Below are positions 5,494 through 48,038 of a DNA stretch of 64,000 nucleotides, in pieces (the first letter of the stretch is position 1; each line of letters opens with the position of its first letter). Under the pieces are notes generated by a model. That model was not told the origin of the DNA. It saw nothing but the letters and a program-made list of their open reading frames with translations, and did no database searches. Both the position numbers and the translations under genes were made by a program. The DNA lies in contig NZ_CP063356.1 in assembly GCF_001866075.3 (NCBI RefSeq), positions 4,144,164-4,208,163 on the forward strand, given 5' to 3'. The DNA comes from Anaerobacillus isosaccharinicus (lineage in GTDB: Bacteria > Bacillota > Bacilli > Bacillales > Anaerobacillaceae).

Positions 5494-6059
5494 GATTGTA
5501 CCCCTTCACCATCATAAAATCCAAAACTATTCCTTTTTGTATCAGGTAAACCAATGACTGTTCTTGTTTCAATAGTCGTGCCGCCGAAGTCCCATTGGTA
5601 TTGCACTTCTTTAGGTGAATGATTTTTTAAATCGTCTTCTTCAAGAAACATAATGGTATCCGTAGGACAAACACTTGCACACATTGGTGGTGTCCCTTTT
5701 GAGGTCCGGTCATAGCACATATCGCATTTATACATCATTTTCTTCACATCATCGACTCTTGGTATTCCAAATGGACAAGCATAAGTACAGTTTTTACAAC
5801 CAATACATTTTTCCAGAGAAGCAGAAAGAACAATCCCATCAGAAGTAACTGAAATGGCCTGCACCGGACAACTCTCTGCACAAGCTGGTGTAACACAGTG
5901 CATACAAGGAGTTGGCGAGGTTGCCACTGTTTCTCCAGGACTTAACTCATCAACAAACATTCTCGACATGTGGTCATGTCCACTACATTCTTCACATCCG
6001 ATAATACACGCCCTACACCCTATACATCGTTCGTAGTCGATATATAAGACTTTACCCAT
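5490..6059 (-). CDS. Four-cluster 4Fe-4S ferredoxin subunit (DmsB/NrfC type)
   Basis: At 189 residues, it has four Cys groups (CIGCRACIIGC, CMHCVTPACAESC, CIGCKNCTYAC, CDMCYDR with MCASVC), as in the electron-transfer subunits of molybdopterin oxidoreductases. It lacks a Tat signal and so is cytoplasmic. Its start overlaps the end of the catalytic gene by 8 bases and its end overlaps the Rieske gene by 4, so the three are translationally coupled. Confidence 0.92.
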   Translation of the reverse strand: MGKVLYIDYERCIGCRACIIGCEECSGHDHMSRMFVDELSPGETVATSPTPCMHCVTPACAESCPVQAISVTSDGIVLSASLEKCIGCKNCTYACPFGIPRVDDVKKMMYKCDMCYDRTSKGTPPMCASVCPTDTIMFLEEDDLKNHSPKEVQYQWDFGGTTIETRTVIGLPDTKRNSFGFYDGEGVQS

Positions 6060-8214
6060 GTTTTACACCTACAATCTCAGCTTTTTTTTCAATTTTAACA
6101 GCACAAACCTTAAACTCTGGTATTTTGGAGTTTGGTTCTAAGGCTGGATTTGTTAAATGGTTGATCGCTAGCGTTTTTCCCCAATGGTATGGTACAAACA
6201 CCATGTCTTCTCTAATAATCTTTGTAATCTTTGCGACAACTTCAATACTCCCCCTCGCACTTGAAAGTTTGACCATTTCACCATTTCCGATGTTATACTT
6301 TTTAGCTAAATTTGGATGCATTTCAACATATGGGTCAGGACAAAAATTAAGAAGTGACTCAATTCTTCGCGTTTGATTTCCACTTAAATAATGGTAGACG
6401 ACACGGCCCGTCGATAAAAAGATCGGATACTCTTCACTAATTTTTTCATTTGGACCTTTATGTTCAAAAGCTAAAATTCTTGCTTTTCCATCAGGGAAGT
6501 TGAACTTTAAGTCTTCAAACAATCTAGGCATTCCCTCGGACTCCTCAGTTGGACAAGGCCAAAATACACCTTGCATATTATCCAACTTCTCATAAGTAAT
6601 CCCATAATAATCAGCTATGCCACCCTTACTAGCTACTCTGAGCTCATTAAAAATATCTTCAGGCTTATCGTACTTAAAGTACTTGCCTCTTCCAAGTCGT
6701 TCGGCTAGGTCGCAAATAATTTCCCAATCCCGTCTTGATTCTCCAGGTGTTCGATCAATCCCTCGAAGCCTTAGCACTCGTCCTTCAACATTCGTAGTTG
6801 TTCCATCATCCTCAACCCAAACCGTTGACGGTAGGACAACATCGGCTAACTCGCAAGATTCTGATAAAAACATATCAATGGCAACAAAGAAATCTAAACT
6901 TTTTAAGTAATCACCTACATGTGCAACAGATGGAGATGAAACAATTGGGTTACTACAAGCTAATATTAATAACTTTATTTCACTACCAAGGGCTTGCAGC
7001 ATTTCAAACGCTGATAAGCCAGGGCCTGGAATTTCTGATTCATCTACACCCCAAACACCTGCAATGTACTCTCTGGCCTTTGGATCAGTTATCTTTCGAA
7101 ATCCTGGAAGTTGATCTGTTTTTTGCCCGTGTTCCCTTCCACCTTGTCCGTTTCCTTGACCAGTAAAGGTAGCAAATCCTGAACCTTTCCTTCCAATTTT
7201 TCCAGTTACTAAGCAAAGGTTTACATAAGTTGAAACTGCATCTGTCCCAGTCGCGTGTTGTTCTACACCACGAGCAAACATCGCCATTCCATTTTTTGAT
7301 TGTCCAAAAATTCTTGCTGCACTAACAATCTTCTCAGCAGAAACACCAGTAATCTCTGAGACGTATTCAGGTGTATATTTCTTAACCAACTCCTTCAGCT
7401 TTTCAAAGCCTGTCGTATGCTTATTAATAAAGTCATAGTCAACTAAATCCTCTTCAATCATCACATGAAGAAGTCCATTGGCTAATGCAACATCTGTGCC
7501 AGGACGGATATCTAAATGAATATCAGCCACTAATGCCGTCTTTGTTTGTCTAGGGTCAATAACAATTAGTTTCGCACCATTGTCCCTGGCGCCCCAAATA
7601 TAAGGCATTGATAATGGATGACACTCTGCCGTGTTTGAGCCGGCTAAAAGTAACACATCAGCTGACTTAATATCCGACCAAGGGTTCGTTGAGCCCCGAT
7701 CTATTCCTACACTTTGGTTAAATCCAAATGAAGCTGAGGACATACAGTAACGTCCGTTGTAATCAATGTTCTTCGTGCCAAGACCAATCCGGGCAAACTT
7801 ACCCATCAAATAACATTTTTCATTGGTCATTGATGATCCACTATATACCCCAACAGCGTCTTTCCCATATTGTGCTTGAACTTCTTGAATTTTTGAGACA
7901 ATTAATTCCATAGCTTCATCCCATGAAGCCTTTACAAGCTCACCATTTTTTCGAATTAATGGAGAAAGTAGTCTTTCGCCGTGCTCTGCTTGTCGATAAG
8001 CTGCCACACCTTTTGGACAAAGTCTTCCACCATTCATAGGAAAATCATAACGTGGTTCTACCCCTATGACTTCTTTTGTTTCAGTTTTCACACGAATATT
8101 CATCCCGCATTGCATCCCACAAAAACAACAATGGGTGGAAATTAAGTCTTCACCATCTCGTTCAATCGCATGATAATCACGTTGGGAATATTCCCTATTT
8201 TGAGCGTGCCCCAT
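6052..8214 (-). CDS. Molybdopterin oxidoreductase, NasC/NarB-like catalytic subunit
   Basis: The 720-residue protein has an N-terminal 4Fe-4S site (C29, C32, C36, C66), the molybdopterin domains and a C-terminal dinucleotide-binding domain starting near EEYPIFLSTGRVVYHY. The Mo ligand is probably C157 in NGRYCMSSAS, the arrangement of assimilatory (Nas/NarB) nitrate reductases; formate dehydrogenases usually have Sec or Cys in a different context. There is no Tat signal, so it acts in the cytoplasm. Membrane, ferredoxin and Rieske partners suggest a quinone-linked complex. Nitrate is the best guess for substrate; formate dehydrogenase-like activity cannot be excluded from sequence alone. Confidence 0.85.
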   Translation of the reverse strand: MGHAQNREYSQRDYHAIERDGEDLISTHCCFCGMQCGMNIRVKTETKEVIGVEPRYDFPMNGGRLCPKGVAAYRQAEHGERLLSPLIRKNGELVKASWDEAMELIVSKIQEVQAQYGKDAVGVYSGSSMTNEKCYLMGKFARIGLGTKNIDYNGRYCMSSASFGFNQSVGIDRGSTNPWSDIKSADVLLLAGSNTAECHPLSMPYIWGARDNGAKLIVIDPRQTKTALVADIHLDIRPGTDVALANGLLHVMIEEDLVDYDFINKHTTGFEKLKELVKKYTPEYVSEITGVSAEKIVSAARIFGQSKNGMAMFARGVEQHATGTDAVSTYVNLCLVTGKIGRKGSGFATFTGQGNGQGGREHGQKTDQLPGFRKITDPKAREYIAGVWGVDESEIPGPGLSAFEMLQALGSEIKLLILACSNPIVSSPSVAHVGDYLKSLDFFVAIDMFLSESCELADVVLPSTVWVEDDGTTTNVEGRVLRLRGIDRTPGESRRDWEIICDLAERLGRGKYFKYDKPEDIFNELRVASKGGIADYYGITYEKLDNMQGVFWPCPTEESEGMPRLFEDLKFNFPDGKARILAFEHKGPNEKISEEYPIFLSTGRVVYHYLSGNQTRRIESLLNFCPDPYVEMHPNLAKKYNIGNGEMVKLSSARGSIEVVAKITKIIREDMVFVPYHWGKTLAINHLTNPALEPNSKIPEFKVCAVKIEKKAEIVGVKHG

Positions 8215-16788: not shown

Positions 16789-18507
16789 ATGCAAACGAAA
16801 ACAATACCAAAACATTTACAAAAATACACGGTGACACAGGAGTATGAAAATTATACGGCTATTAATCACGCTGTTTGGCGTTATGTCATGCGCCAAAATC
16901 ATCATGGATTAAAAGAGATCGCCCACCCCGCTTATACTGATGGTTTAAAGGCTTCTGGAATTTCGATTGAACAACTTCCTAACGTAGACCATATGAATGT
17001 ATGCTTAGCCCCTTATGGATGGGGAGCGGCAACCATTGACGGCTTCATCCCAGGAGTTGCCTTTTTTGAGTTTCAAGCCAACGGTATTCTACCTGTCGTT
17101 GCCGAAATTCGGAAACTAGAAAACATCCAGTATACCCCTGCTCCTGACATTATTCATGAAGCTGCAGGACATGCGCCGATTCTTTGTGATAAAAACTATT
17201 CTGAGTATGTTAAGCTTTTTGGCAACATTGGAAAAAAAGCGATTGCTACAAAAGAAGAACACGATCTATTTGAAGCTGTCCGTCATTACTCTAACCTTCT
17301 TGAAAAAGGGGAATCAACCGAAGCAGATATCATTTCCGCCAAGAACAAAATCGATGAAGTCGCCTTGTCCATCAAAGGCGTATCTGAGGCAGAACAAATT
17401 TCAAGACTATACTGGTGGACAGTTGAATACGGTCTTATTGGAGATTTAGCTAATCCAAAAATTTACGGAGCTGGGCTTTTGTCCTCTATTTCTGAAGGTA
17501 GTAATGTCCTAAGTGATGCTGTAAAGAAAATTCCATTTGAGCTAGAAACGATTATTAACACCGGTTTTGATATTACAAAACCACAGCCACAATTATTCGT
17601 TTGTGAAAATTTCGAACAACTAACGGAAGGTGTACTAGAATTTTCAAAGCGAATGGCCTTTATGACAGGTGGAACAGAAAGCTTAGAGAAAGCCAAGCAA
17701 TCTGCCAATTTGGCAACGATTGAATATAGCTCTGGTCTTCAAGTAACAGGCGTTCTCCACGAATTACTCTATAACGATGCAAAAGAAGCGATCTATCTTA
17801 AAATGCTAGGTCCTACTGCACTTGCCTATGATCATAATGAAATTGCAGGACATGGAACAGCAACACATAACGATGGTTTTGGAGCACCGATTGGGAATTT
17901 ACATGGAATTTCAAAGGCTATTGAGAACCTAACCGATCATGAGCTTACGAGTCTAGGAATTGTGCCTGGCCAAGATTGTACCCTCTCATTTGAGTCTGGG
18001 GTCTTAGTCAAAGGAAACGTTCTTTCAATTTTGAAGCAAGACGAAAAAATACAACTCATATCTTTTGAAAATTGCCGTGTGTCATACCAAGATCAAACAT
18101 TATTCGAGCCGGAATGGGGACTATACGATATGGCTGTAGGCGCGACGATCTCATCCGTCTATGGTGGTGCAGCAGATGGCGAAGCGTATTATATAATTGA
18201 CGATCAAAGCGTTGGAAATGCAACTAAATCTATTGAACGCTCTGAGTTAGACTCTCTATATCAACAAATTAGAGAACTACGCGAAGGAAAAAGCGACAAT
18301 CCTACAGGTGTTATTGAAGCAGTCGCAACGAAACTCAAAGATAACTATCCTACTGACTGGCTGCTCCGCCTCGAAATTGTTGAACTGTTAACAAAAAATC
18401 ACTGGTTGCCCGTATTAGAAGGTGAACTTCGAAATGACCTAGATCAGTTACAAAAATCCAACGATGATTTAAGACCACTAATCATGCGCGGGCTAGAGAT
18501 TTGTTAA
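16789..18507 (+). CDS. phhA: Phenylalanine 4-monooxygenase with C-terminal extension
   Basis: This protein hydroxylates phenylalanine to tyrosine using tetrahydropterin and O2. The Fe ligands are H123 and H128 (HEAAGHAP) and E213 (YWWTVEYGLIG). The catalytic domain ends near residue 300; the remaining ~270 residues form an extra region with HGTATHNDGFGAPIGNL and a Gly-rich AVGATISSVYGGAADG stretch, seen in the long bacterial form but of unknown role. The total of 572 residues compares with about 260-300 for the short form. The start is ATG after GGGAGG. Confidence 0.93.
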   Translation: MQTKTIPKHLQKYTVTQEYENYTAINHAVWRYVMRQNHHGLKEIAHPAYTDGLKASGISIEQLPNVDHMNVCLAPYGWGAATIDGFIPGVAFFEFQANGILPVVAEIRKLENIQYTPAPDIIHEAAGHAPILCDKNYSEYVKLFGNIGKKAIATKEEHDLFEAVRHYSNLLEKGESTEADIISAKNKIDEVALSIKGVSEAEQISRLYWWTVEYGLIGDLANPKIYGAGLLSSISEGSNVLSDAVKKIPFELETIINTGFDITKPQPQLFVCENFEQLTEGVLEFSKRMAFMTGGTESLEKAKQSANLATIEYSSGLQVTGVLHELLYNDAKEAIYLKMLGPTALAYDHNEIAGHGTATHNDGFGAPIGNLHGISKAIENLTDHELTSLGIVPGQDCTLSFESGVLVKGNVLSILKQDEKIQLISFENCRVSYQDQTLFEPEWGLYDMAVGATISSVYGGAADGEAYYIIDDQSVGNATKSIERSELDSLYQQIRELREGKSDNPTGVIEAVATKLKDNYPTDWLLRLEIVELLTKNHWLPVLEGELRNDLDQLQKSNDDLRPLIMRGLEIC

Positions 18508-41589: not shown

Positions 41590-42243
41590 TTACCAGCGTA
41601 TCTCATCTACTAAATCTTTTAGAACCCTTACCCGATCTTCACTAATGTTCCAATCCTCAATTTCACGTTTAAGTTCCGTTGGAGTAATATACCCTTTTAC
41701 TAAGCCGTTCAATCTCGCCACAACAGTAGCATTCGTAATCGTTTCCTCCGTTTGAAACAACCTAGCTAAAACCATCATTGCATTTTTATATCGCTTTAAA
41801 TAATATTTCTGGTGATATTCTTCTGCGAGATAAAACCTCTCATAGAGACTAATTTCTGTTTGAATATTCCCTTGTAATAACTCTGCCTGTTGTTTCTTCG
41901 TTTTCTCAGCTAATTCCTTTTGACTATCATTACGATAAAATAAAAGCGACATATACTGTCTACCGCCATAAGCCTGGTCTCTTTGCGGATTATGATTTCC
42001 CCAGAAAACATCTAGAATTTGTTCTAAGCTAATAATCGTCGAGTCAAAATCTAGTTCAATACACTCCGTATGATCACCCATTTTTCGATACGTTGGATTG
42101 CTTGTAGTTCCACCTGCATAACCAACACGAGTTCTAACCACACCTGGTATATGCCCAAACTGAGCATCAGGACCCCAAAATCAGCCCATCCCAAACGTTG
42201 CTGTTTCGACCTTTTTTGCTTGTAAATCATATTCCGTACTCAT
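41590..42243 (-). CDS. msrA: Peptide methionine sulfoxide reductase A, probable selenoprotein (UGA at catalytic site)
   Basis: The frame from ATG 42243 (after AAGGGTGAG) is interrupted only by TGA at 42183-42181, codon 21, inside FGMG-x-FWGPDAQFG, where the family's catalytic Cys stands in G-C-F-W-G. Both sides are in the same frame: ATFGMG before it and GHIPGVVRTRVGYAGG after it. The downstream part is intact with GDHTE and the HNPQRDQ block. Read with selenocysteine at 21 the protein has 217 residues, a normal MsrA length. A hairpin at SECIS distance follows the UGA. MsrA reduces methionine S-sulfoxide; Sec forms are known in a few algae and clostridia. A point-mutated pseudogene or a sequencing error is the alternative. 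Confidence 0.82.
42143..42171 (-). promoter_or_regulatory. Putative bacterial SECIS hairpin in msrA
   Basis: Starting 10 nt after the UGA, CCUG-AUGCUC pairs with GGGCAU-(AUAC)-CAGG. This gives a 6-bp upper stem with an AGUUU loop containing the GU seen in E. coli fdhF, and a 4-bp lower stem. The loop begins 20 nt after the UGA, close to the 17-20 nt spacing of known bSECIS elements. Folding was judged by eye. Confidence 0.65.
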
Positions 42244-42475
42244 TTGCGCTCACCCTTCTTTAAATAGGATTTCGTATTCGTTATAGATTATATTTTTTAC
42301 GACTCGATAGCAATGAATGTACTGAAAATAGAAAATAGGAACTGTACAAAACTTTAGTCAAAAAAATCCGCACTAAGATTCTAAATTCTTTAATTAGAAT
42401 TTGAATTAATTCGGACTTTTCTATTTATAGACTTCTTTATCACGCGAATATTTCTTTTACTTTTTAGTTAACTAA

Positions 42476-43765: not shown

Positions 43766-44365
43766 CTACTTTTCCACTAATAACTCTATATCTGCTAGTA
43801 TTTTTTCAATTTCAATAGGTTTATTGGCCAACGCCATATCATAAAGTGCCCGAATGTTTTGGTTTTCATCTATTAAATACATTGTAATCGAGTGATATAA
43901 GACGGCACCGTCTCTGATCTGGAATTGCATTTGGAATTTTTGGGCAATTTTTTCAGTTTCCTCTGTTGTTCCTCGTAACCATTTCCACCCTTGTGGATCA
44001 GCTCCAAAGTCAGTCGCATATTTCTTTATCTTATCTGGAAGATCATTTTTTGGATCAAGGGTTATAGCTACTAGTTCGACTTTATCACCAAATAAACTAG
44101 ATTCTTTTAATTGATCCTGTAAATCGATAAAATCCATAAGCGTTAGTGGACAGATATCAGGACAATCGATAAAAAAAAATGTGACCACTTTTACTTTTCC
44201 ATTATTTGACTGATACATACCTTCATGAACATCTTCCAACTGAAATTCATTGACATTGGCTAATAATGGAAGACTATCATTTTCTGGCCAAACCAATGAT
44301 ACTAGTAAAAAACCAGCTAAGATTATACAAAGAAAAAACAAACTATTAAGCTTTCTCATTTCCAC
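43766..44365 (-). CDS. Sco1/SenC-family copper chaperone (MnxC-like)
   Basis: The 199-residue protein has an N-terminal signal-anchor (residues 8-26) and a thioredoxin-fold domain with the copper-binding pair C68-P-D-I-C72 and H158 (VLYHSITMYL), as in Sco1/SenC. It should act outside the membrane. It starts 4 bases after the mnxG stop, so it is the last gene of the operon and probably loads copper into MnxG. In Bacillus sp. SG-1 the Sco-like gene (mnxC) lies upstream of mnxG, so the gene order differs here. Confidence 0.9.
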   Translation of the reverse strand: MEMRKLNSLFFLCIILAGFLLVSLVWPENDSLPLLANVNEFQLEDVHEGMYQSNNGKVKVVTFFFIDCPDICPLTLMDFIDLQDQLKESSLFGDKVELVAITLDPKNDLPDKIKKYATDFGADPQGWKWLRGTTEETEKIAQKFQMQFQIRDGAVLYHSITMYLIDENQNIRALYDMALANKPIEIEKILADIELLVEK

Positions 44366-44369
44366 ACAC

Positions 44370-47300
44370 CTACAGATGTCTTTGCTTTTTATTTTTTAAC
44401 GGCAGAAGATGTTTCTGTCGTTCTTTGTGGACGCGAATAATTCCCCACATTCCTTGTTCAATATCCCAACGAATGTTTCCGGAACGATACATGTAATCAC
44501 CAGGTAGTGCATAAAAACTTCCTGCCCCGTAGTGCAAATTTAAGTCTGTGGCATGCCCTGTTACGATTTCACCTTCAACTGACTTAATCTCTGAGGTAAT
44601 GTCTTTATCGTCAGTATTCCAATAGTGACCATGTAGATGAAACGTATGTGAACGCCTTCGTTCCGATGGATTTACTAATCTAATTGTAATCGGATCACCT
44701 GGATAGGCTTCAAATAACGGGGTTGATGGGTCACCATGGACTCTTGAACTAAATAAGTCCCTTAACACAGGGTGCTTTCGCAACCGATTTATTAATCGTT
44801 CTGTACGATAATTAAAGCCTCTTGAACCATTGTCATACGTATCCACTAAATCGTCCTCTTCTGGGTCTACCCCTCCTAAAATCCCATCAACTGGGTCAAT
44901 AATTACCCTTCCTTTTTTATCAACCAAACGAGCGCCATCATACATAACAAGAACAAATTCCCTTATGTCTGGTAAAAATGGATTTCGTAGAATAACGTTC
45001 GCTCCAGTTATAATTGATTTCCCTGTATATGGATCGATATATTCCGTTCCTCTTCCCTCGGCGATAAAAGCTCCATAAGTCCCTAATGAACGGTGATTTC
45101 TAATATCAGCCATGTCCCATAATCCACAGGCCCCAACAGCAATGTCGACATACCATTTATACGTCACTGTTTCTCCTGGTCCAACCGTTTGATCCGGGTT
45201 AAATCCGACCGTTTCTCCTGCAGACGTTTTTACATCATAGTCTAGTAACTGCGAATGCAATGAGATCCTTAGCGAAGGTGGATAAAACGCTTGTTCCTTC
45301 ACTGGTGGATACGGCCAGATCCCATCTGGAAATGGAAACCGATCGAATTCTAACTTACTTGTTAGTTTCACTTCAACGACGTCCCCTTGATTTGCTCGAA
45401 GAATAAGTGGTTCAGGCTGCTTTCTACCACATAGAATAGCATCCATCTCTTCTTCAAGCGCAAAGACAATTCCAAATGGATCTCGTTCCCCCCATTTACT
45501 GTAAACAATCGGGGTGTGAAACGCGACAACGCTAAATCGTTTTACAGGTGCATCAGCTGGGCCAGTTGATGCTACCACCTCAGCTGGTGCAGGAGGGTTT
45601 CCGGTACAAATCGGTAACGGTTTCGTTCGCTTTGGTGGGCGTTTGCGATCTGGTAGTGGAATAAGAAAATCAACTTCCTGATCAAAGGCACGGATTAACC
45701 CCCATAGCCCATTCCAGAGATCTTCTTCTGTTTCAAACGTCCACAAATAATCACCAGATCTTGGCACCTCCATCTCTAGCGTATATGATTCTGAAATGCC
45801 GATATGTTGTTGCGCTTTAAACTTTGTCTCCGTATCAGGATGTTCGGACTTCCAACGTAACCCATGAATATTGAAACTATGAGATTCTTCTTGCGCCCCT
45901 TGTAAGAGTCTAACTCGAATTGGATCTCCTTCATAGCAAAGGAAAATTGGTGTGACAGGATCCCCTTTGACAAAGGAACTAAACGAATAAGCAGGATCAC
46001 AGTCCTTTCCTAAACGAAATTGAAGAGGCTCATTTTTATAATTGACTCCAAATACCCCCGGGTCATCCTGCGAACCCGGAAAATCTGGTGGTTGTAGTGG
46101 ACAGCCATCTTTATCAAAAAGCAATGCAAAGTCTTGAACCATTAACACAATGTCCCGGTAATCTGGTACAAATTGATGAACAGCCGTTACCTGTGTCCCG
46201 TGATCTACTTCTTTTCCAGTCTTCGAATTTAAGATATTCGTAAAGCGCGGATGAACGACACCTGCACCAAACACACCGTGCTGCTGATGGAAACCTGGAA
46301 AGAGATGATCATGGAAAAACCATGCTTTTAGTTCAACATCCGCATAATATTCATAACGGATCGTTTCTCCAGAAAGAACACTCGAATCATAGTTCCAACC
46401 AACATTTGCGCCATCTGAAACCAAGACATCAAATTTAACAAAGTGGACATGCATTGCCCCTTCATACGTCCTTGATACAAGCTGAAAGGCATTCCCTCCG
46501 ACTACTTCTGGTAGCCGATTTGTAAAGTTAACCCGGACACAAGTATTCGCAGACATATGAAGGACTAGAGGCTCTGGTTCTTTTCGTCCTTGTAAGACCT
46601 CGTCAACGTCTTCATCTAGTACATAAATTCTGCCTATTGGATCATTCCACCCTTGGCAATTGTAGACAATTGGGAGTTGAATAAGCGACACATTAAATTC
46701 TTGAACCAGAGGATTTTCAACTACTGAACAAGGGTCTACAAACACTGCACCGGGCCTCGCTGTTGGAACGGCTGCATTTTCTTCTAGTACTGTCATTTCC
46801 CGTCCACCAATAATTCCAAGTGGTGGTCTTGGTGCTTTACAACCTACCTTTCCAGGAATGAAATTCGGAAACCCCGGACGCTCCTTAGTTGGTTTTGGTG
46901 GACAAGGTCGATTAGGCAATGGCTGAAGTGGCGCAATTGGAACACCATTCGGATAGCATTGACCTCCATCCTGAAGAGTGTCAAAAATTCGGTTTAACCC
47001 CCACATCCCAACACCAAAATGCGGGTAAAGATGACAGTGAATAATCGCATCACCGATGGCTCCTTGTAGCGATCCAAGTCCATAGTGTGGTTGAAGCGTG
47101 TACCAAGACTGAGGTCCAACGGATTGAGCATCTAATATTTCAGAATCGGCATTTTTAGGATCCTTTGACCACTGATGCACATGATAATGAAGCACATGAG
47201 TTTCCTTGACGCCAGCATTCACTAATCTAATTTTGACAGGATCTCCACGATAGCCCCGTAAAATGGGCGTCGCAGGATCACCAAAGACCCAAGAATCATG

Positions 47301-48038
47301 GTGAACCTCTTCACCATCACAGTCAGGACAAACAACTCCTTCTTTAAGCAATCGAGCTCGATTTTCCATCGGATCGTAACGGTAGTTAACAGCATGCGTG
47401 GACTCGCGCTCTTGATTTGTCATTGGATCCAAAGGTCTGTTTCCGGTAACATCCTTTGTTGGCATTTCATCATGAAAAATCCAGGCATATTCACGGAAAG
47501 ACGGCAAAAAAGGGTGATGAATATCCGCATAAACGCCACTATTTAAAGGACCTCCAGTTATCGGGTCGGTCCACCAAGAACCTCGTTTTTCGGCAAATAA
47601 GCAACCAAATAAACCATTAATATTGGTTCCGTCATCACTACAATCGGGGTTCCCTAAATCAGAAAACATACAAACCCCTTCATGATTAATTCTAAATTTA
47701 TAGAGAATTTTTTCCCCGGGACTAGCTAATGTATCTGGATTAAACCCAACATTCGCTCCATCTGACTTTAGGACATCATAATCAACTTCTTGAAAATGCA
47801 TTCCAGTTGCATAATGGATTTGATTTTCAAATAAGACTTCAACATCTTCACCCACATTTGCCCTGATACAAAGTGGCTGTACCAGTTCAACCGGTGTAAA
47901 TGGTTGTTTTCGAACTAACTCCTTTACTTTCTGTTCATTTTCCTTCAGTACATAAATCATGCCATCTCGGTTGTAATCGCCAAAGTTATTGAGAACTATG
48001 CGAATCGAGATCGCAACGACATGGTAAGATCGTTTCAT
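44370..48038 (-). CDS. mnxG: Manganese-oxidising multicopper oxidase MnxG
   Basis: The 1222-residue protein is close to SG-1 MnxG (about 1217). It contains repeated cupredoxin domains (about six), as in ceruloplasmin-like oxidases. Copper motifs include H334-C-H336-xxx-H340-xxxx-M345 (HCHLYPHFGVGM, type 1/3 cluster) and HYHVH in the first third, HDH near the middle, H720-x4-H725, and H1131-T-F-H-L-H-G-H1138 near the C-terminus. There is no signal peptide, as in spore-coat enzymes made in the mother cell. It oxidises Mn(II) to Mn(IV) oxide on the spore. It is preceded at 18 bp by an MnxF-like gene and followed at 4 bp by an Sco chaperone. Confidence 0.9.
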   Translation of the reverse strand: MKRSYHVVAISIRIVLNNFGDYNRDGMIYVLKENEQKVKELVRKQPFTPVELVQPLCIRANVGEDVEVLFENQIHYATGMHFQEVDYDVLKSDGANVGFNPDTLASPGEKILYKFRINHEGVCMFSDLGNPDCSDDGTNINGLFGCLFAEKRGSWWTDPITGGPLNSGVYADIHHPFLPSFREYAWIFHDEMPTKDVTGNRPLDPMTNQERESTHAVNYRYDPMENRARLLKEGVVCPDCDGEEVHHDSWVFGDPATPILRGYRGDPVKIRLVNAGVKETHVLHYHVHQWSKDPKNADSEILDAQSVGPQSWYTLQPHYGLGSLQGAIGDAIIHCHLYPHFGVGMWGLNRIFDTLQDGGQCYPNGVPIAPLQPLPNRPCPPKPTKERPGFPNFIPGKVGCKAPRPPLGIIGGREMTVLEENAAVPTARPGAVFVDPCSVVENPLVQEFNVSLIQLPIVYNCQGWNDPIGRIYVLDEDVDEVLQGRKEPEPLVLHMSANTCVRVNFTNRLPEVVGGNAFQLVSRTYEGAMHVHFVKFDVLVSDGANVGWNYDSSVLSGETIRYEYYADVELKAWFFHDHLFPGFHQQHGVFGAGVVHPRFTNILNSKTGKEVDHGTQVTAVHQFVPDYRDIVLMVQDFALLFDKDGCPLQPPDFPGSQDDPGVFGVNYKNEPLQFRLGKDCDPAYSFSSFVKGDPVTPIFLCYEGDPIRVRLLQGAQEESHSFNIHGLRWKSEHPDTETKFKAQQHIGISESYTLEMEVPRSGDYLWTFETEEDLWNGLWGLIRAFDQEVDFLIPLPDRKRPPKRTKPLPICTGNPPAPAEVVASTGPADAPVKRFSVVAFHTPIVYSKWGERDPFGIVFALEEEMDAILCGRKQPEPLILRANQGDVVEVKLTSKLEFDRFPFPDGIWPYPPVKEQAFYPPSLRISLHSQLLDYDVKTSAGETVGFNPDQTVGPGETVTYKWYVDIAVGACGLWDMADIRNHRSLGTYGAFIAEGRGTEYIDPYTGKSIITGANVILRNPFLPDIREFVLVMYDGARLVDKKGRVIIDPVDGILGGVDPEEDDLVDTYDNGSRGFNYRTERLINRLRKHPVLRDLFSSRVHGDPSTPLFEAYPGDPITIRLVNPSERRRSHTFHLHGHYWNTDDKDITSEIKSVEGEIVTGHATDLNLHYGAGSFYALPGDYMYRSGNIRWDIEQGMWGIIRVHKERQKHLLPLKNKKQRHL

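Follow-up and report, generated by a model that had tools for sequence, protein, structure and literature searches.

The msrA locus at 41590-42243 on the minus strand of the window (the whole stretch of 64,000 nucleotides that was analysed, which sits within a single 5.23 Mb contig) raises the question of how a methionine sulfoxide reductase can be made from a reading frame with a stop codon in its active site. The frame reads ATFGMG-stop-FWGPDAQFG, and re-reading of the minus-strand frame confirmed what the initial annotation had described, namely a TGA exactly at the codon of the catalytic cysteine. The features of the frame are as follows.

41590..42243, minus strand: msrA, predicted selenoprotein gene, 217 amino acids with U21 (open reading frame, PF01625, TIGR00401)
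42251..42260, minus strand: likely ribosome binding site AAGAAGGGTG, read by eye upstream of the ATG
42181..42183, minus strand: in-frame TGA at the catalytic Cys codon, predicted to be read as selenocysteine (Sec, U21) (frame and alignment)

Translation would start at ATG 42243-42241 behind AAGAAGGGTG, so that the good start and ribosome site noticed initially hold. TGA 42183-42181 is codon 21 and is followed by 196 open codons up to a stop ending at 41590, and the window copy is intact apart from this TGA. The protein matches TIGR00401 with 128.6 bits (cut-off 108.1) and PF01625 with an E-value of 4.5e-43. The mechanical list of open reading frames opens the gene at GTG 42141 (183 amino acids), resulting in loss of the active site; within that list, this is the truncation that had been expected of automatic calling. 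Its presence there is what speaks for a shortened protein from GTG 42141, without an active site, being the real product. However, residues flanking the UGA and upstream of 42141 are conserved as protein in 10 aligned sequences, the window's included, with G18, M19, G20, U or C at 21, F22, W23, D26, A27, F29 and G30 invariant, and we give the shortened product almost no credence. A second MsrA of the same genome, at G000:C1:4778555-4779010, is a canonical Cys form. On the strand of msrA and a short distance upstream of it, past an aldo/keto reductase gene, a 1222-amino-acid protein with multicopper oxidase domains (44370-48038, minus strand) adjoins an SCO1/SenC protein (43766-44365, minus strand).

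The genome carries all four genes whose search had been proposed along with the Sec reading. Both selA (E 4.6e-143) and selB (357 bits, curated cut-off 242) were found, selD (L049, G000:C1:3731765-3732694) itself contains an in-frame TGA in the motif KGG-U-GCK, and selC is represented by two tRNA-Sec genes that are identical over 93 nt, have the anticodon TCA and both score above the Rfam cut-off.

G000:C1:3587722-3587814: tRNA-Sec copy (L195), outside the window
G000:C1:3725088-3725180, same strand as L195: tRNA-Sec copy (L194), outside the window

In two formate dehydrogenase-type matches, one above and one below the family cut-off, the active-site motif contains a TGA (GCNRT-TGA-HAPSVAGL, QARI-TGA-HSSTVAGL), which is the usual Sec position of FdhA, and a third TGA-bearing match exists besides. 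Unlike these other fdhA-type genes of the genome, a formate dehydrogenase-type alpha subunit inside the window (6052-8214, minus strand) is free of in-frame TGA. The tRNA-Sec copies lie ~137 kb apart, inside a repeat of ~290 bp whose two instances are 95% identical. Directly downstream of the selB-side copy is a tyrosine recombinase gene (PF00589), of which the other copy keeps only the start. The arrangement looks like an integrative element with selC as its site.

We surveyed 397 genomes of the order Bacillales with an alignment of the helical-domain MsrA (E <= 1e-40). Matches with Sec or Cys occurred in 61 of the 397 genomes and 26 of 135 genera. The initial remark that such a protein is unusual in Bacillaceae is too strong in view of these numbers and of the named carriers Sutcliffiella horikoshii and Alkalihalobacillus deserti. 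The catalytic codon is TGA in 49 of the 61 matching genomes (including G296 and G243, added on separate inspection of their sequences) and TGC or TGT in nine (eight full-length; G301 truncated); the other three comprise a shorter Cys MsrA that lacks the extension (G205) and two matches of ~146 positions with no stop (G060, G197). SelA (E <= 1e-100), the sole gene of the Sec machinery scored in relatives, was detected in 49/49 TGA genomes, 0/9 Cys genomes and 3/3 of the others, and the contrast between the first two groups is the pattern that a true selenoprotein predicts. Relatives with TGC or TGT at this codon, seen at the outset as an argument against Sec, therefore do exist, but 49 TGA and nine Cys genomes split along SelA. 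In a set of 61 genomes (the genome itself and 60 relatives), a single TGA is present in nine of ten full-length matches, the window's included; G019, the remaining one, has Cys and comes from a genome lacking SelA, and a frameshift divides an eleventh copy (G015).

Named genomes were searched for SelA at E <= 1e-50 (17 loci, 16 genomes searched, L122 left out). Alkalihalobacillus deserti TRPH29 and Sutcliffiella horikoshii CH28_1T combine TGA with SelA. The Cys form was met in 11 named Bacillota, one of which overlaps with the nine of the survey; SelA was absent from nine of the 11 and present in two, Planococcus sp. 107-1 and Planomicrobium sp. CPCC 101079 (L087, L091), which we read as having switched to Cys while keeping SelA. 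SelA was found in none of three haloarchaeal or Salinivenus genomes with the Cys form. Since the S. horikoshii protein is that of G389 and the Gottfriedia solisilvae protein that of G207, these named cases are not independent of the survey. Across the order survey and the named genomes TGA was never met without SelA, whereas Cys with SelA does occur. The scan of genome contigs used a pattern with C at the active site, leading to under-sampling of Sec forms in that scan, while the order survey was unaffected.

These distributions also bear on the possibility that a nonsense mutation in the active-site codon has turned msrA into a pseudogene. Decayed TGA-bearing copies do exist in the family, with a frameshift in L189 (G015), an extra TAA in L069 (G313) and an internal deletion in L192 (G243), indicating that msrA is being lost in some SelA-bearing lineages. 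By contrast, the same codon is TGA in 49 genomes, dN/dS downstream of the UGA is below 0.3 in nine of nine Sec pairs tried, and the window copy is otherwise undamaged, which leaves a pseudogene with a negligible probability.

A hairpin shortly after the UGA could provide the signal for Sec decoding.

42150..42168, minus strand: SECIS-type hairpin, stem approximately 42167-42161 with 42157-42151, loop AGUUU or triloop GUU (folding, covariation, codons)

The AGUUU loop described in the initial annotation is present (or a GUU triloop if A-U closes), but the stem begins 13-14 nt after the UGA and not 10 nt downstream. The hairpin does form upon folding, although its energy is unremarkable (z -0.60, equalled by 56 of 200 shuffles), with free energies of -7.0 kcal/mol for 27 nt, -10.5 for 45 nt and -13.3 for 60 nt. 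In the passages available from the review PMC13188914, the bacterial SECIS model has a loop of 3-9 nt, an upper stem of 4-16 bp, a G in the first two loop positions, a distance of 16-37 nt from the UGA and a free energy of <= -7.5 kcal/mol, the folded stretch being unstated there. The msrA hairpin has this geometry, with 6-7 bp, AGUUU or GUU as its loop and a spacing of 19-20 nt from the UGA to that loop; in isolation its -7.0 kcal/mol is slightly short of the threshold, and the longer stretches are beyond it. Because the energy does not rise above that of shuffles, the argument relies on the paired changes, the codon skew and the association with SelA.

For covariation, an alignment of 47 TGA genes, 46 of them distinct, was scored over the 8 pairs of the hairpin against 500 shuffles. 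Standard pairs fill 93.8% of the hairpin cells, three pairs show changes on both sides (22 cells), and the covariation score is 0.345; the standard pairing, the cell count and the score were each reached by 0/500 shuffles. The number of changed pairs and that of pair types are not beyond the shuffles, 125/500 and 148/500 of which reach them. Sliding the partner strand lowers the pairing to 27-48%, and columns 23/27, which close the loop, hold G-C in 27, A-U in 14 and neither in five of the 46 distinct genes. Codon choice within the hairpin is likewise skewed in 44 full-length genes, with CGG for 26/26 Arg, CAG for 17/17 Gln and GGG for 36/44 Gly, against fractions of 0.12, 0.39 and 0.18 in the remainder of those genes, as well as GCC for 26/39 Ala and TTC for 30/43 Phe; p-values for this skew count related genes as independent. 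The GGG excess is absent at the Gly codons +3, +13 and +20 of these 44 genes.

The hairpin is the best fold of the same 27 nt in 0/9 Cys genes, two of which (G164 and G237) fold other, stronger hairpins. Under a covariance model of the hairpin, a held-out Sec gene (L085) scored 62.8 bits and the window msrA, a member of the model, 65.6 bits, while the runner-up in its own genome reached 17.9 bits among the 150 of 1296 first-look candidates that were scored. Cys genes scored from 11.7 to 47 bits, and since they share coding sequence the score measures more than structure alone. The 47 bits belong to the Cys msrA of a SelA-less genome (G341; L068, 1540-1587), in which the hairpin is no longer the best fold, and which may retain a SECIS relic. 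A second candidate SECIS in the window (17874-17913; model R1, 17.9 bits) lies inside an intact 572-amino-acid open reading frame and was taken as chance, and a permissive Rfam scan near msrA gave four matches that all fell well short of their gathering scores.

Read-through of UGA is found in Bacillus, so a near-cognate tRNA (e.g. that for Trp or Cys) inserting its amino acid in place of Sec has to be considered for the UGA of msrA. However, such read-through leaves unexplained both the link with SelA (49/49 versus 0/9) and the constrained codons of the hairpin, and we regard it as very improbable. Decoding as Sec is the reading to which the machinery, the SelA link, the hairpin covariation and the match to the selenoprotein structure 4LWJ all point, in agreement with the initial proposal.

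The protein itself was divided as follows.

41794..42210, minus strand: MsrA catalytic domain, about residues 12-150 (alignment, PF01625, structure model)
41593..41793, minus strand: helical domain at the C-terminus (about residues 151-217), of the kind present in C. oremlandii MsrA (4LWJ match, model)
42061..42063, minus strand: Cys61, possible resolving Cys, beside the conserved Glu60 (alignment)

Residues 10-216 match 4LWJ with an E-value of 1.3e-54. A structure model (mean pLDDT 89.5, from a 19-row alignment of the window protein and loci of the genome-contig scan) predicts helices at 153-162, 166-171, 173-183, 188-196 and 202-214 of the C-terminal domain. In the fold search, ranks 1-7 are all entries of the C. 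oremlandii MsrA (TM 0.83-0.85 by query, 0.88-0.90 by target), other MsrAs reaching at most 0.62 by query. Cys61 is the sole Cys besides U21, and a C-terminal Cys is absent; the CoMsrA type is a 1-Cys enzyme, lacking any resolving Cys. A Cys at exactly +40 from the catalytic residue is found in 21/47 Sec genes, 0/9 Cys genes and one Paenibacillus Cys form, and we speculate that Cys61 acts as a resolving Cys.

For the C. oremlandii enzyme (CoMsrA), the passages available from PMC4333827 describe 20-fold higher activity with Sec than with Cys, reduction by glutaredoxin and not by thioredoxin, and loss of almost all activity without the helical domain, while those from PMC4479559 describe a dimer step via the catalytic residue. 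Taken together, msrA very probably encodes a selenoprotein methionine-S-sulfoxide reductase A whose UGA is decoded as Sec under guidance of the hairpin. The genes, the hairpin and the conservation are observations, from which we infer that UGA 42183-42181 is decoded as Sec. In the proposed mechanism, tRNA-Sec and SelB would read this UGA, with the short intracoding hairpin, its loop ~20 nt after the UGA, guiding the decoding, and Sec21 would then attack the sulfoxide of Met-S-O. Judging by homology, and given the helical domain of CoMsrA type and the lack of a C-terminal resolving Cys, recycling would probably proceed via a glutaredoxin-like or low-molecular thiol rather than thioredoxin, perhaps with help from Cys61.

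To place the change between Sec and Cys, we built a maximum-likelihood tree from 47 Sec and 26 Cys sequences (73 rows; G205, G301, G313, G015, G296, G243 and L090 left out). It needs five Sec/Cys changes (bootstrap range 4-5), although just two are required if strongly supported branches alone are counted. Rooted on the haloarchaeal and Salinivenus Cys forms, the tree is best read as one gain of Sec from Cys followed by about four returns to Cys, in G019/G225/G391, in family f40 with Paenibacillus, in Planococcus and kin, and in Gottfriedia, whose row is a long branch and hence unsure in placement. The direction of change is provisional because clostridial Sec-MsrAs are outside the tree. We lean slightly towards a history in which the helical-domain MsrA of Bacillales contained Sec early on and went back to Cys on about four separate occasions, for the most part in genomes lacking SelA and with decay of the SECIS hairpin, while Sec forms repeatedly gained a +40 Cys that may be resolving. 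If true, this MsrA represents a natural replicate experiment on Sec-to-Cys reversal, a change that the 2026 review PMC13188914, in the passages available, treats as rare and documented primarily for FdhA and SelD.

The gene thus appears to be a genuine selenoprotein gene of the C. oremlandii type, a known kind, with selenium incorporation as its predicted outcome. In the available passages of the respective sources, a selenoprotein MsrA was studied in a strict anaerobe (PMC4479559), a Syntrophobacter Sec MsrA is listed in a 2006 survey (PMC1794560), which credits Bacillales with three selenoproteins of three families whose names those passages do not give, and nine Sec MsrA sequences come from the marine metagenome of a 2008 ocean survey (PMC2398784). 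MsrA is also named among 'selenoproteins related genes' of soil strains (PMC11076775), by annotation only and with no UGA evidence in the passages available, and selenoproteins are described as seldom retained by aerobic bacteria (PMC13188914). No report of a Sec-containing MsrA in Bacillaceae or Bacillales was found in the accessible passages, including those of PMC1794560, PMC9312934, PMC2398784, PMC8161402 and PMC11076775, and an earlier listing elsewhere is possible. As far as searched, the spread of Sec MsrA in Bacillales and the tree with its Cys returns appear to be new. A Sec MsrA would thus be spread through an order of Bacillus relatives that includes many aerobes, in genes for which a standard gene caller may place the start beyond the active site, and near relatives with Sec or Cys, largely matching presence or absence of SelA, offer ready pairs for studying the benefit and loss of selenium.

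Among known systems, the window MsrA is closest to that of C. oremlandii OhILAs (4LWJ, 4U66, 4W8C), its best fold match (TM 0.85/0.90) at 43-44% identity, sharing the G-U-FWG site, the catalytic domain and the C-terminal helical domain. By contrast, CoMsrA is devoid of Cys according to the passages available from PMC4333827, while the window protein has Cys61, and the host lineages differ. The canonical MsrA of the same genome shares the catalytic domain, with GCFW, at 39% identity, but it has Cys instead of Sec, its frame ends 166 residues from that Cys and the helical domain is absent. Like fdhF-type bacterial SECIS elements, that of E. coli fdhF itself included, the msrA hairpin is short, intracoding, located just after the UGA and has a G in its loop, although its isolated stem is weaker (-7.0 kcal/mol). 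The hairpins of both fdhA-type TGA genes in the same genome resemble it in loop sequence, sharing a C-R-G-U-Y-Y-G-G-like loop region with msrA.
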